From the NCBI GenBank assembly GCA_021814475.1, contig JAKAIE010000035.1, positions 1 to 33,222 of the forward strand: a stretch of DNA of 33,222 nucleotides. Reading direction: 5' to 3'. The notes under the pieces were generated by a model. The model was not told the DNA's origin. It worked only from the letters and a program-made list of their open reading frames with translations, and did not search any database. The position numbers were made by a program, and so were the translations under genes. This DNA is from Nitrospirota bacterium. GTDB lineage: Bacteria > Nitrospirota > Thermodesulfovibrionia > Thermodesulfovibrionales > UBA6898. Below, piece by piece: positions 13,063 through 31,631 of the stretch (position 1 is the first letter of the stretch; every line of letters starts with the position of its first letter).

Positions 13063-13863
13063 CTATTTCTTCGCCATGGGAGGGGTCGGCACGTTCGAAC
13101 CGTGGCATTCGCTGCAGTTCTGCTGCGCCGTGATGCCTATGTTGCTTGCCGGCTTCCATGCGGATTTTTGCGTGTATGTGCCGTCCTTCCAGTCATTTAG
13201 GTCCCTGACGAGTTTATATGCTACGCTCGCCGCAACCCGGGCGCACCGGTCTTTTCTTTCAGGGCTTCCGAGGGCATACCCTGACTCCTTCATCCACTTG
13301 CCGACAGATACGTGGCAGAGGGGCGAATTGCTTGTCGTCTGGATGATCTTCGCCTTCTGCCGGGGCTCTTTCGGGGTGAAGGTGGGAAGCGCGGTTTCAG
13401 AGTACCAGAGCAGTGCATCCGCCCCGATCGCTGCGCCGTTTTCACACTCCGGCCCCGCGATCCTCGGGCCTATGATCATGTTGCTCACGATGTTGGCGCC
13501 CGCGTTCGAGCCGCAGACCGTTCCCCATCCGACCATCCCGCCTTCGAGAAAGACGAAGGCGTCGCTCGGAAATGATGTGTAGGGCTCACCCACCTTTTCA
13601 CGCAGTTGGCTGAAGACGCTGTTGATGACCGCGGCCCCGCAGAATACCCGGTACCATTCGTTATAAGCCAGTTCCGCGGTCTTTTCCGGGTCGAGTTTGA
13701 CGTAAGGCCAGGGCCATTTTTCTGTTGCCCCGCCCTTCGCCTCGGCCCTCGAGAAAAGTCCCATTCCTCCCATAGTGAGAGCCGCGATGCCGGCCGCCCC
13801 TGCGGCCGTCTTGAGCAGGCCCCTGCGTGATACCTCTCCATGAAACAGAGTTTCTGGTTCCAT
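13063..13863 (-). CDS. Split-Soret cytochrome c-like, Tat-exported C_GCAxxG_C_C protein
   Basis: 266 residues. A Tat signal (SRRGLLKTAAGAAG, ending at about residue 42) is followed by a C_GCAxxG_C_C-type redox region: FCGAAVINSV, GGMVGWGTVCGSNAGA, then CENGAA and SPLCHVS. The C-terminus has a single c-heme motif CSECH near residue 253. This layout (Tat signal, Cys-rich core, terminal heme motif, about 250 residues) matches the split-Soret cytochrome c of Desulfovibrio, a dimer with two hemes at the subunit interface and a possible Fe-S site; its role is unclear. GGAGG precedes the ATG. It is first in a run of minus-strand genes with the two NosL proteins, with a hairpin in between. Confidence 0.75.
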   Translation of the reverse strand: MEPETLFHGEVSRRGLLKTAAGAAGIAALTMGGMGLFSRAEAKGGATEKWPWPYVKLDPEKTAELAYNEWYRVFCGAAVINSVFSQLREKVGEPYTSFPSDAFVFLEGGMVGWGTVCGSNAGANIVSNMIIGPRIAGPECENGAAIGADALLWYSETALPTFTPKEPRQKAKIIQTTSNSPLCHVSVGKWMKESGYALGSPERKDRCARVAASVAYKLVRDLNDWKDGTYTQKSAWKPASNIGITAQQNCSECHGSNVPTPPMAKK

Positions 13864-17629: not shown

Positions 17630-17962
17630 TCAGCCGCCTTTGCCTTTCAGGTAGTCCCCGAGCAGGCCCCTGCTGTGTTCGTCCTCGTGGCAGTAGGCGC
17701 AGAGGTTTTCCCAGTTTGAGCCGTCGGGGGGATTGTTGCTGTGGTTGCCGTCCCGGTGATGCACGGTAAGCAGATGGCGATCTTTCTCCTCGAACTCTCT
17801 TCCGCACTTAGCGCAGATCAGCCCATGCAGTTTCAGGGAGCGTTCCCTGTAATCCTCTGCCGGATGGACAGCATTTTTCAGTTCCCTTACGATCTCTTCG
17901 ACAGACTTTCCCTTTGACGCGTTCAGGGTCCTTTTCGATGATGCATAGCGGGGACGCCTCAT
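17630..17962 (-). CDS. HNH endonuclease, YajD-like
   Basis: 110 residues from the ATG at 17962 (GAGG upstream); the frame runs open to 18064, but that stretch lacks family resemblance. It contains CAKCGREF, LTVHHRDGNHSNNPPDGSNWENLCAYCHEDEH, i.e. two CxxC zinc pairs and the HH...N...H residues of HNH nucleases, in the arrangement of YajD. YajD-like proteins are small cytoplasmic HNH proteins with no settled role. It is divergent from the selenopeptide locus and shares its 185-bp upstream region. Confidence 0.85.
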   Translation of the reverse strand: MRRPRYASSKRTLNASKGKSVEEIVRELKNAVHPAEDYRERSLKLHGLICAKCGREFEEKDRHLLTVHHRDGNHSNNPPDGSNWENLCAYCHEDEHSRGLLGDYLKGKGG

Positions 17963-18057
17963 ATAAGCTTGTCCTCTTCCACGATTCCTATTATATACCG
18001 CTTCTATGGCGCATTGAGCGATTGCAGCGCCGGGGAGGTTCTGTAGTCCTAATCCTA

Positions 18058-18085
18058 TTGACATGCCGTGAATAGCTGGTAAGAT
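18058..18085 (+). promoter_or_regulatory. Promoter candidate for the selenopeptide gene
   Basis: TTGACA (18058-18063), a 16-base spacer, TAAGAT (18080-18085). The predicted start of transcription falls in the GATAGAT dyad at 18092-18108, about 60 bp before the peptide ATG. Confidence 0.5.
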
Positions 18086-18108: not shown

Positions 18109-18147
18109 TGAGCCAACAGATCCATAGGCAGAAGGGAGGTGAAGAGG

Positions 18148-18327
18148 ATGAAAAAGGCTATGTCCGAAAAGGCCCTGGCCCGGGAGGCTTCATTCTGGGA
18201 ACGCCTGAAGAAGGCGGCAGGGGAAAATCCCGGTAAGGTATGCCACAAGTGAAAGGGCTGAAAGAGCTGACGTTGCCGGTCTGGCAACAACGTGATGAAC
18301 GGCAGATATGCCGGTGCATGTTCATGA
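18148..18327 (+). CDS. Candidate tri-selenocysteine RiPP precursor peptide (reads through three UGA codons)
   Basis: ATG with GGAGG 8 bases upstream opens a frame of 34 codons, then in-frame TGA codons at 18250, 18259 and 18268, each followed by Lys or Arg and spaced three codons apart, before a TGA at 18325. Read with Sec (U), the product is 59 residues: a charged, helical leader (1-31, ending AAGENPGKV), then a core with Cys32, Sec35, Sec38, Sec41 and Cys43 in the order CHK-UKG-UKS-URC, a short tail and Cys58. The CxxUxxUxxUxC regularity and a following radical SAM/SPASM gene are typical of modified Cys-rich peptides. A SECIS-like hairpin with a GGUCU loop overlaps the end of the core. SelD in this window is itself a Sec protein. 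If UGA were a normal stop, the product would be a 34-residue peptide with one Cys. I recall a described class of Sec-containing radical-SAM peptides (SbtA/SbtM names) but cannot show membership. Readthrough is inference. Confidence 0.7.
18272..18288 (+). promoter_or_regulatory. bSECIS-like hairpin
   Basis: GTTGCC-GGTCT-GGCAAC: a six-base perfect stem with loop GGUCU. The SelB-binding apical loop of the E. coli fdhF SECIS is AGGUCU, on a stem with similar bases. Between each TGA and the loop lie 25, 16 and 7 bases; in fdhF it is about 18, so the first two fit best and the third would rely on a shared element. ACGT on both sides (18270-18273 and 18290-18293) can extend the stem past a bulge. 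Confidence 0.65.
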
Positions 18328-18421: not shown

Positions 18422-19471
18422 ATGCCGGTACACAACGCGTTTGAATTTTTTATCCAGCTGCACCTTACCGAACGATGCAATCTCCGGTGCACCCACTGTT
18501 ATCAGCAGGAAGGCAGAACGAACGAGATGTCGCTCCCCGAAGTAGCGGAACTGGCGGAAGAGACCGCCGACATGATCGGGGCGTGGCAAGAGGCGTACGG
18601 CATCGGGATCTCTTCGAGCTTCAATGTGACAGGTGGTGAACCTTTCCTCAGGCCGGATCTCTTCGAGGTGCTGGAAGAGCTGAACGGCCGGGGTTTTGAT
18701 CTGTATCTCCTGACGAACGGCATACTCGTGGACAGGGAAAAGGCGTCCCGTCTGGCGAACCTGGTGAAAGGGGTCCAGATCAGCATCGAAGGACCGGAGA
18801 CGGTCCATGACAGCATACGGGGGCGCGGCAGTTTTGCCTCGACGATGAAAGGCGTGCGCTCTGTCGTGGACGCTGGGATCGAACTGACACTGAACACCAC
18901 CCTATCCAGAGTGAACGCGCCGCATTTTTCCGGGATAATCGATCTGGCCTCCTCTCTCGGAGCGCGGAGGCTCGGTTTTTCGAGACTCGTGCCTGCGGGA
19001 AGCGGCCGGCAGATGCGGGACAGGACGCTCGGAAGGGAAGAAGTGAAGGCCCTGTATCAGGAGATCTTTTCGCGCGACACAGGGGGCCTGCGGATCGTCA
19101 CGGGAGACCCGGTAGCTTCCCAGCTCAGGGCTTCCTCTTCCGCGGACAATGTCTCTGATAATGGTGATGAGTGGCCATCCGGCGGATGCGCTGCAGGTGT
19201 CTCGGGCCTGACCATTCTGCCCGACGGTACTGTCACCCCCTGCAGGAGGATGCCGATACCCATAGGCAATGTGCGTCAGGACTCCCTCCGGGAGATATGG
19301 GCGACATCGGGAATTCTGAACAACCTCAGAAATAAATCGAAATACGGCGGGAAGTGCGGGAGATGCGCGAAATGGGCCGCCTGCAGGGGCTGCAGGGCTA
19401 TCGCCTATGCCTTTTCCCGGGATGCAGGCGAGGGAAACTGCCTTTCAGAGGACCCGCAGTGTTTTCTCTGA
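18422..19471 (+). CDS. Radical SAM/SPASM peptide-maturase-like protein
   Basis: 349 residues, cytoplasmic. The radical SAM cluster motif is C19-x3-C23-x2-C26 (ERCNLRCTHCYQ), with SAM-binding NVTGGEP and the strand QISIEGPETVHDSIRG. The C-terminus is a SPASM domain: GGCAAGVSGLTILPDGTVTPCRR, GNVRQDSLREIW, then KCGRCAKWAACRGCRAIAYA and a last Cys pair, enough for two auxiliary Fe-S clusters. Enzymes of this build modify ribosomal peptides (thioether, C-C or epimer products) or cofactor precursors. The small gene just upstream, with a CxxUxxUxxUxC core, is the obvious substrate. The ATG at 18422 is the first in-frame start after a stop at 18395; AAGG lies 9-10 bases before. No exporter or protease is adjacent. 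Family certain, substrate inferred. Confidence 0.85.
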   Translation: MPVHNAFEFFIQLHLTERCNLRCTHCYQQEGRTNEMSLPEVAELAEETADMIGAWQEAYGIGISSSFNVTGGEPFLRPDLFEVLEELNGRGFDLYLLTNGILVDREKASRLANLVKGVQISIEGPETVHDSIRGRGSFASTMKGVRSVVDAGIELTLNTTLSRVNAPHFSGIIDLASSLGARRLGFSRLVPAGSGRQMRDRTLGREEVKALYQEIFSRDTGGLRIVTGDPVASQLRASSSADNVSDNGDEWPSGGCAAGVSGLTILPDGTVTPCRRMPIPIGNVRQDSLREIWATSGILNNLRNKSKYGGKCGRCAKWAACRGCRAIAYAFSRDAGEGNCLSEDPQCFL

Positions 19472-28417: not shown

Positions 28418-29254
28418 TCAGAGTGTGCCCTCGAACACCCGGGCGATCCGGTCTATATTAGCGTGTTCCTCTTCCGCGAGGACCTCAAATATCCTTCGGG
28501 CCTCCTCGGAATTGACCATCCTGCCGAGCTTGAGATAAAGGTCGTAGGCATTGGCGCTCAGAGACATCAGCATCTCAAGGATATCTGTGGCGCTCCTGTC
28601 CTTTGCCCAGCGCAGGGCATCAGCAACCTTTACGCAGCCGACCATGACCGGGTCTTCGGGAAGTTCGATAACTCCTGCTGGAAAATTCTTCTCAGGAGAT
28701 TGCCCGGTGATACTGCGATAGAGCTGCCGCAGTCTCTCTTTATGGTCCTTTTTGTCGCCGGCGAGCGATGCCACGGCAGCTGCACCCTGTGACGAAAGTG
28801 CTCCGGTGGAGATCTGCCCTAAGAACGACCCGGTCCCTTCTTCCACGTAACAGGCTACGGCAAGAAGCTGGCCGGGACCGAGATTCTCGGGGAAGCAGAA
28901 CATCCCCGCCTCGGGAGGACCGCTTGCGACGATCCCGTTGTAGCGGATTATTCCGCCGCTCATATTCAGGACATTTTTCAATCCACTGGCCAGGAGGAGC
29001 GTGGCAGCTGCATTGCTCCTGCTTCCCGTCCGGCAGTATACGATGATGGTCCTGTCCGGGGATATCCCGCTGATATTCTGCCGCAGCTGACCAAGAGGAA
29101 TGAGCCTGGCCCCCGGGAGGTGACCATGCTGATACTCCGACGGCTGGCGCACGTCGACCAGACAGTATTCCGAGGGGGCCTTGTCACGTATATACGCACG
29201 CACTTCGTCTGTCGAGATGCACGGCGCCTTCCGGAAGAGATCAAAGATGCCCAT
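28418..29254 (-). CDS. Rhodanese domain fused to ferritin-like domain
   Basis: 278 residues, no signal peptide. Residues about 10-110 are a rhodanese with CLVDVRQPSEYQHGHLPGA and the catalytic loop VYCRTGSRS, whose Cys would carry persulfide sulfur. Residues about 130-275 are helical and end with ANAYDLYLKLGRM and FEVLAEEEHANIDRI, the E-x2-H helix of rubrerythrin-like ferritin domains that bind two irons. Similar fusions occur in metal-reducing anaerobes; a role in sulfur transfer with peroxide or iron handling is plausible but unproven. It follows the NifX-like gene by 15 bp, so they are likely an operon. Confidence 0.8.
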   Translation of the reverse strand: MGIFDLFRKAPCISTDEVRAYIRDKAPSEYCLVDVRQPSEYQHGHLPGARLIPLGQLRQNISGISPDRTIIVYCRTGSRSNAAATLLLASGLKNVLNMSGGIIRYNGIVASGPPEAGMFCFPENLGPGQLLAVACYVEEGTGSFLGQISTGALSSQGAAAVASLAGDKKDHKERLRQLYRSITGQSPEKNFPAGVIELPEDPVMVGCVKVADALRWAKDRSATDILEMLMSLSANAYDLYLKLGRMVNSEEARRIFEVLAEEEHANIDRIARVFEGTL

Positions 29255-30584: not shown

Positions 30585-31631
30585 ATGACAATTAGGCTCA
30601 CAGAACTCTCAAGCTGCGCGGGTTGAGCGGCAAAATTCAGTCCTCTGGACCTGTCCCACGTGCTGGGGCAGCTGCCTGCTGTAACAGACAAAAACGTACT
30701 GGTTGGATCTTCGAACGCGGACGACGCCGGGGTATACCGGATCACAGATGATATCGCGGTCGTACTCACCACGGATTTCTTCACGCCGATCGTGGATGAC
30801 CCGTACTGGTTCGGCGCGATTTCCGCGGCCAACTCCCTTTCCGATGTCTGGGCGATGGGGGGACGGCCGACGGTCGCACTGAACATCGCGATGTTCCCGA
30901 GCAGCCCCGAGTTTTTTCCCTCTCTGCAGAGGGTGATGCAGGGAGGCATCGACAAGATGACCGAGGCCGGGGTTGCGATCATCGGAGGCCATACGATCAA
31001 GGACAAGGAGCCGAAATTCGGCTATACCGTCATGGGTCTGATTCATCCGGACAGGATCCTCGACAATTCAAAGGCGAAGCCGGGAGATGCGCTGATACTC
31101 ACAAAAAAGATAGGGACCGGCATCGTCTCGACCGGGGTGAAGGCCGGCATGTGCAGCAATGCGGTGATCGAAGAGTTTACCCTTTCGATGGCGACCCTGA
31201 ACAGAAGGGCCGGTGAGATTATGATGGAGACCGGTGTCAGCACCGCGACGGATATTACCGGGTTCGGGCTGCTCGGACACCTCAACGAGGTGCTCTCCGC
31301 AAGCCGTTGCCGGGCGCGCATTCATGCCGGGCGCGTCCCCTTCTTTGACGATGCCGTGAGGCTCGTGAAGAACAGCATTGCCCCGGGGGGGACGTTCGGG
31401 AATCTGAAGATGTACGCACCAAACACGACATATTCAGGCGATGTCCCAGAGTATGAGAAGATCCTTCTGAACGATGCGCAGACATCCGGCGGCCTTCTAA
31501 TCTTCGTGCCGGGCGAAAAGAGGGAGACACTGGTCTCGGCCCTTCAGAAAGAAGGTATCCTCGCTGCCCACATCGGTGATGTCCTGGACGCCGGGGTGAG
31601 GGACGACAAGAGAATAATCGTAGAGCGCTGA
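30585..31631 (+). CDS. selD: Selenide, water dikinase with in-frame UGA (selenoprotein SelD)
   Basis: 349 codons with one in-frame TGA at 30624, giving 348 residues when read as Sec14. The start at 30585 has AGGAGG 8 bases upstream; a tool that stops at TGA would begin at 30660 and lose the active site. The sequence CAG-U-AAKFSP lines up with the SelD catalytic motif, where Cys or Sec is followed by the essential Lys (here K17). Further motifs: DDAGVYRITDDIAVVLTTDFFTPIVDD for Mg-ATP and GGHTIKDKEPKFGYTV. SelD makes selenophosphate from selenide and ATP, needed for Sec-tRNA and selenouridine. Neighbours: ArsR upstream, TauE/SafE permease 8 bp downstream. SelA, SelB and selC are not in the window. 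Confidence 0.93.
30638..30653 (+). promoter_or_regulatory. Possible SECIS stem in selD
   Basis: CAGTCC-TCT-GGACCTG folds into a six-pair stem with one bulged C, 12 bases after the TGA and with the loop at about +18. The position suits a bacterial SECIS, but the loop lacks the GGUCU of the hairpin at 18272. Confidence 0.4.

Follow-up and report, generated by a model that had tools for sequence, protein, structure and literature searches.

The selenobacteriocin SbtA and its maturase SbtM form the closest known system to the one described here: SbtA is likewise a short selenocysteine (Sec, U)-containing precursor with up to two Sec, paired with a radical S-adenosylmethionine (SAM)/SPASM enzyme (PMC11002830, PMC13188914), and SbtM forms a thio(seleno)oxazole on SbtA with the loss of four hydrogens (PMC11002830). 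Two Sec three residues apart also occur in the UxxU selenoproteins, i.e., Prx-like proteins, the FmdB family, and a putative mercuric reductase (PMC13188914, PMC2398784); none of these multi-Sec proteins is tabulated as a short C-x-x-U-x-x-U peptide in Table 1 of PMC13188914, and among the 119 families and subfamilies of that table no CxxUxxU peptide is listed. The same survey states that nearly all selenoproteins have Cys homologues (PMC13188914). Here, we report on a 33,222-nt stretch of DNA from a Nitrospirota bacterium (the window), i.e., contig JAKAIE010000035.1 (C47) of the 3.15 Mb draft genome GCA_021814475.1 (136 contigs, 93.9% complete), which probably carries a conserved two-gene unit encoding a 40-residue peptide with two predicted Sec and, downstream of it, a radical SAM/SPASM enzyme whose likely substrate is this peptide (Table 1). 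A literature search found no paper joining selenocysteine, Nitrospirota, and ribosomally synthesized peptides.

The peptide frame starts at ATG 18148 behind a Shine-Dalgarno-like sequence, confirming the initiation proposed in an initial annotation of this DNA, and runs into TGA at 18250, 18259, and 18268, i.e., at a spacing of nine bases; its C-terminal end is predicted to be C-H-K-U-K-G-U-K-S, with U standing for a UGA codon read as Sec. The spacing of the TGA triplet is by itself not significant, as 0.25 triplets are expected per window by chance and at least one triplet occurred in 21 of 100 shuffles. The significance of the frame comes from the conservation of codons 35 and 38 as TGA at homologous loci (69/69) and from the constraint on the leader, which has a ratio of nonsynonymous to synonymous differences (pN/pS) of 0.37 (means of 0.254 for pN and 0.685 for pS, from 1,891 pairwise comparisons among 62 leaders without gaps). 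The 69 distinct loci are those to which all matches of a leader profile (A1) in the order and the phylum reduce. This profile comprises only the 34-residue leader and no TGA columns, which avoids presupposing the TGAs; although the sequences behind it carried TGA at positions 35 and 38, the profile stops short of these positions, so that Cys or other versions with the same leader could have been detected. Neither Cys nor any other codon was found at positions 35 and 38 among the 69 loci, in contrast to most selenoproteins, and the core is C-x-K-U-x-x-U-(K/R)-S in all of them. An in-frame UGA that is kept while its neighbors vary is one mark of a bacterial selenoprotein gene, and codons 35 and 38 show it in every locus; the first two TGAs therefore look as if they are held by selection.

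Codon 41 is an exchangeable stop. It is TGA in 37 loci, TAA in 22, TAG in seven, and a sense codon in three (TCA, TCA, and GAA), each of the three being followed immediately by TAG. The stretch downstream of codon 41 is not coding because single-base insertions and deletions occur there within a covarying hairpin. Judged from the compared sequences, the third TGA is an ordinary stop, and the peptide has two predicted selenocysteines, not three. The short Sec-containing peptide that the initial annotation predicted is thus borne out at codons 35 and 38, and conservation does continue beyond the first TGA, as UxxUKS, up to the third. Its CxxUxxUxxUxC array of three Sec has to be given up, since the third position is a stop codon in 66/69 loci and C43 lies beyond it. 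As to whether other codons replace the TGAs, a point which the annotation itself had raised, none does so at positions 35 and 38, and only the third position varies, as a stop. A general reassignment of TGA was excluded by reasoning: the enzyme gene ends in TGA, and the selD gene of the window has a UGA at its presumed Sec site.

The leader profile matched in 49/176 genomes of the order and 59/395 of the phylum, with matches also outside the order, both in a second order of its class and in a different class. M1, E13, W17, C32, and K34 are invariant among the 38 sequences of the leader alignment. At the DNA level, the pattern C-x-K-UGA-x-x-UGA-(K/R)-S gave matches in 56/176 genomes of the order and the reversed pattern gave none (0/176); please note that at least eight of the pattern matches were judged to be due to chance (L060, L063–L067, G138:C54, and G023:C5) and one is a relic. 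The relic (L107, G002:C33:30000-33200, minus strand) retains the peptide end GRNPGKACRKUKAUKS-stop without a leader, and its genome, from the same genus as the window genome, has no enzyme match at 1e-90. In relatives, the same peptide was found upstream of enzyme homologues in 23 of the 26 loci examined; L022 and L026 do not have it, and a contig end interrupts L027. The named database homologues of the enzyme are from Nitrospirota or Nitrospirae. An enzyme homologue with 63% identity lies in Thermodesulfovibrionales; a search for related loci returned a single locus. Among the best 120 of 239 database proteins that match a full-peptide profile, 118 end at C-x-K, which in the window directly precedes the first TGA, and the remaining two at the same point with a different last residue, as would proteins cut at the first TGA. 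Protein databases, at least in these best 120, thus show the peptide only up to that codon, in line with the earlier expectation that gene callers truncate it.

Just past the stop there is a SECIS-like (selenocysteine insertion sequence-like) hairpin. A hairpin with an early G in its loop, 15–27 nt after UGA 2, is present in 67 of the 69 loci compared with 8.6% of 3,450 dinucleotide shuffles, or 2.4% if −5 kcal/mol or better is demanded; in L058 and L096 no scorable SECIS-like hairpin was found. Each of the six stem pairs is realized by several standard pair types over the loci, e.g., one pair is U-A in 45, C-G in 18, U-G in five, and unpaired in one, and the loop-closing pair is C-G in 44, U-A in 19, and another standard pair in six. 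The hairpins for this covariation were picked automatically with at least five of six pairs, which gave a mistaken hairpin in L009 and questionable ones in L055 and L096. Spacing and hairpin counts come from a separate search that replaces this automatic pick. The published rules for bacterial SECIS elements ask for a loop of 3–9 nt with an early G, a stem of 4–16 bp, a distance of 16–37 nt from the UGA, and a minimum free energy of −7.5 kcal/mol or lower (PMC13188914). The window hairpin lies within these limits with its GGUCU loop, 6-bp stem, distances of 25 and 16 nt to the first two UGAs, and −7.7 kcal/mol, and 49/69 of the family hairpins reach −7.5. Its fold energy by itself is not significant (z −1.1 to −1.5 for the single hairpin), and an Rfam scan of the window returned no match. 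In six loci the hairpin lies at least 12 nt from codon 41, and five of these, all belonging to family f4, use TAG or TAA as their stop; of the eight distinct f4 loci, none stops with TGA and five have the hairpin farther from the stop. From these sequences, a link between a more distant hairpin and a non-TGA stop is only suggestive.

As the loop distances to the first two UGAs (25/16 nt) are within the published range and that to the stop is only 7 nt, a single hairpin past the stop probably acts on both Sec codons but not on the third UGA. In this proposal, SelB with Sec-tRNA would bind the single hairpin just past the stop; PMC4513850 suggests that recruitment of the SelB complex to the SECIS precedes the arrival of the ribosome. 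When UGA 1 and then UGA 2 enter the A site, the hairpin would still be outside of the ribosome and Sec could be inserted; a ribosome hides about 11 nt within its mRNA tunnel (PMC4513850), and when UGA 2 occupies the A site, 10 nt separate it from the stem, which could persist. Once the third codon has moved in, only 1 nt is left before the stem, so the ribosome would melt the hairpin, the hold of SelB would be lost, and translation would halt there whichever stop codon is present. In the accessible portions of PMC9312934, PMC2398784, and PMC13188914, the wording "single SECIS" or "one SECIS" was not found. The locus is a natural test of bacterial SECIS reach, as one hairpin in the window faces UGAs at 25, 16, and 7 nt, with the first two UGA positions fixed in the family and the third exchangeable, and whether one SECIS serves several UGAs in bacteria is a question testable in a short construct.

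The genes for Sec synthesis and insertion, whose presence the initial annotation took as a check on its proposal, were found in this genome for the most part. selB (385.9 bits) and selA (596.4 bits) are both on contig C125, and selD, of the Sec type, lies in the window about 12 kb from the selenopeptide gene. selD has one in-frame TGA, at 30624, which we take to be the usual Sec site; a plain open reading frame (ORF) listing starts the gene only at 30660. selC was not found in this assembly: the best Rfam score is 45.5 against a cut-off of 47, blastn with the selC of the same genus gave no useful match, and there is none beside selB. We read this as an assembly gap, given that selC is over the cut-off in 53/61 relatives; it still lowers certainty. 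Over the same cut-off, no tRNA-Sec was found in four other peptide genomes, i.e., G010, G015, G018, and G382, with a partial blastn match in G018. These four and the window genome (G000) thus lack a tRNA-Sec over the cut-off despite having selA and a UGA-containing peptide, and their selC may be divergent or split, including that of G382, which is a single contig. selA is over the cut-off in 10/11 of the peptide genomes tested; G057 has a tRNA-Sec and no selA match. A rhodanese-domain protein (28418-29254, minus strand), 1.3 kb from selD, is possibly linked to selenium handling.

The initial annotation named the adjacent radical SAM/SPASM enzyme as the likely partner, and comparison strengthens this. 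An enzyme homologue is downstream of the peptide in 61 of the 69 loci, its start 26–391 nt from UGA 1; the eight loci without an adjacent enzyme are L045 (contig end), four of family f11 with the enzyme elsewhere in the genome, L116, L120 (where only 862 nt of downstream sequence is available), and L125. In the f11 loci (L108–L111), peptide and enzyme genes are not neighbors, and the peptide gene of L111 is located ahead of a large radical SAM gene that resembles ArsS. Across the 176 genomes of the order, both genes are present in 47, the peptide only in two, the enzyme only in one, and neither in 126, so that they occur together in 47 of the 50 genomes having either. Both peptide-only genomes (G067, with the enzyme matched in three pieces, and G085, with a contig end) and the enzyme-only genome (G023, 66% complete) are listed here as such. 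A short precursor genetically coupled to the maturase is one mark of a ribosomally synthesized and post-translationally modified peptide (RiPP) with a radical SAM maturase, and this coupling is found here. Cysteines C19, C23, and C26 of the enzyme (CxxxCxxC) and seven C-terminal ones, 10 in total, are invariant in 37 homologues, and the predicted structural model places the enzyme in the radical SAM/SPASM fold class.

Table 1. Features of the selenopeptide locus and of selD in the window (forward strand, +; positions counted from the first letter of the 33,222-nt stretch).
Feature	Position	Strand	Evidence or remark
Shine-Dalgarno-like GGAGGTGA	18135..18142	+	GGAGGTG precedes 33/38 distinct homologues
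Selenopeptide gene (predicted), MKKAMSEKALAREASFWERLKKAAGENPGKVCHK-U-KG-U-KS-stop, 40 residues	18148..18270	+	Frame and comparison of 69 loci
UGA 1, predicted selenocysteine 35	18250..18252	+	TGA in 69/69 loci; 25 nt before apical loop
UGA 2, predicted selenocysteine 38	18259..18261	+	TGA in 69/69 loci; 16 nt before apical loop
UGA 3, peptide stop codon	18268..18270	+	7 nt before apical loop; exchangeable stop in family
SECIS-like hairpin, GUUGCC-GGUCU-GGCAAC	18272..18288	+	Wholly 3' of stop; 6 bp, 5-nt loop, −7.7 kcal/mol
Radical SAM/SPASM enzyme, 349 aa, likely modifies peptide	18422..19471	+	PF04055 78.1 bits, PF13186 47.2 bits
selD (selenophosphate synthetase), Sec-type	30594..31517 (matched stretch, not gene call)	+	TIGR00476 343.8 bits, cut-off 125

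Besides the enzyme, no ORF family occurs in more than five of 16 neighborhoods chosen around the enzyme, and a larger conserved gene cluster was ruled out on this count; in that survey the greedy choice of ORFs missed the enzyme in L155, and one of the two recurring families runs antisense to the peptide region. Downstream of the enzyme in L149, L150, and L154 (family f4) there are two related genes that look like MqnC/MqnE radical SAM enzymes and a thioredoxin-reductase-like gene.

Membership in the SbtA/SbtM system was rejected. In the four SbtA loci read, the leader is MDxxDLKKxLAGLSIAGLL-like and the Sec sites are U-(A/S/T)-G, whereas the window family has a CxxUxxUKS core, a single hairpin beyond the stop, and a 349-aa enzyme, unlike SbtA/SbtM. 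An SGUG-type Sec site, the SbtA motif in Table 1 of PMC13188914, is not found in the 69 peptide loci. The window peptide matched 0 NCBIfam families; 24 homologues with C written for U did not match TIGR04081 and gave three unrelated weak matches, the best to SkfF (E 0.0033, in two members). In line with the initial annotation, which found no known precursor with a similar leader, the leader is unlike that of SbtA when profiles are compared. The enzyme reached 130.2 bits against TIGR04082 (SbtM), the threshold being 350, with profile positions 199–515 of 516 covered. Searching 61 genomes for TIGR04081 gave 10 places over the cut-off in nine genomes, none at the peptide loci; seven of these nine relatives also carry the peptide family, at separate loci. 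The four true SbtA-like loci read in relatives are L165–L168, with two UGAs in L168 (SSUTG and SSUSG) and one in each of the other three.

Several other explanations deserve weighing. The view that the peptide has three selenocysteines and extends beyond 18270 draws on the window frame staying open past this point under TGA readthrough and on the TGA at codon 41 of 37/69 loci; it is refuted for the family by the TAA, TAG, and sense-then-TAG loci, the single-base insertions and deletions in the downstream hairpin argue against it too, and the loop is 6–9 nt from codon 41 in 57/69 loci, outside of the 16–37 nt rule of PMC13188914, so we give it next to no credence. Please note that these 6–9 nt distances come from a lowest-energy choice, which took other hairpins in L031, L033, L055, L058, L096, and L130. 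We find it no more credible that the enzyme belongs to tetrapyrrole metabolism, be it as heme b synthase (AhbD) or otherwise, and has the peptide as an accidental neighbor. AhbD is indeed its best NCBIfam name, and JGI calls many homologues AdoMet-dependent heme synthase, but the enzyme scores 177.3 bits against the AhbD cut-off of 500 (TIGR04545), on which AhbD identity was rejected; a separate protein of the same genome scores 447.1 bits, itself just under the cut-off, and an accidental neighbor does not agree with the co-occurrence in 47/50 genomes.

Two further alternatives accept the Sec codons and question the role of the peptide. If the two codons were a selenium-sensing leader controlling the radical SAM gene in cis, i.e., attenuation with a functionless peptide, a short frame close upstream of the enzyme (61 loci) and ending at a hairpin would be expected, as is seen; the conservation of leader residues, i.e., the pN/pS and the five invariant positions, speaks against it, as do the four genomes that carry both genes with the peptide apart from the enzyme, and we consider this quite improbable. 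Somewhat less so, though still unlikely, is that the peptide, instead of being the substrate, serves the enzyme as a redox partner or acts as a selenium-rich ligand (CxxUxxU) for a metal or Fe-S cluster: the spacing is CxxCxxC-like, and with no third gene family in more than five of 16 neighborhoods, no further RiPP genes are visible, but the conserved leader and the near-obligate SPASM pairing fit a substrate better, and the best-ranked structural relatives modify peptides.

We therefore retain the reading of a Sec peptide modified by its enzyme partner. The enzyme would bind the leader, in which E13 and W17 are conserved, and would apply SAM radical chemistry to the C-terminal Cys/Sec/Sec core. 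By analogy with the nearest structural relatives, a selenium-carbon cross-linked peptide is the favored product. The SPASM peptide maturases SkfB, SuiB, ChlB, and CteB share 14–24% identity with the enzyme, whose substrate here differs by its predicted Sec. The alignment of the enzyme model with 5why and 8vpo begins only at residue 91–92 of these structures, so that it lacks their N-terminal part; 5why and 5wgg are CteB. Put forward tentatively, as one possibility and not an expectation, the locus may encode a di-selenocysteine RiPP with no Cys counterpart, two tandem Sec codons decoded by a single SECIS lying entirely past its stop, and C-Se cross-links made by the dedicated SPASM enzyme in C-x-x-U-x-x-U; such a peptide would found a class of its own among selenium natural products or cofactors. 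If the Sec peptide is as we propose, this would be the second genetic family of selenocysteine-containing radical SAM peptides, present in 59/395 sampled genomes of the phylum.

Elsewhere in the window, a YajD-family HNH nuclease gene (17630-18064, minus strand) is divergent from and directly upstream of the peptide gene. A protein encoded at 13063-13863 on the minus strand weakly matches TAT_signal as well as C_GCAxxG_C_C (26.3 against 27 bits); the latter family has listed Sec forms in Table 1 of PMC13188914.
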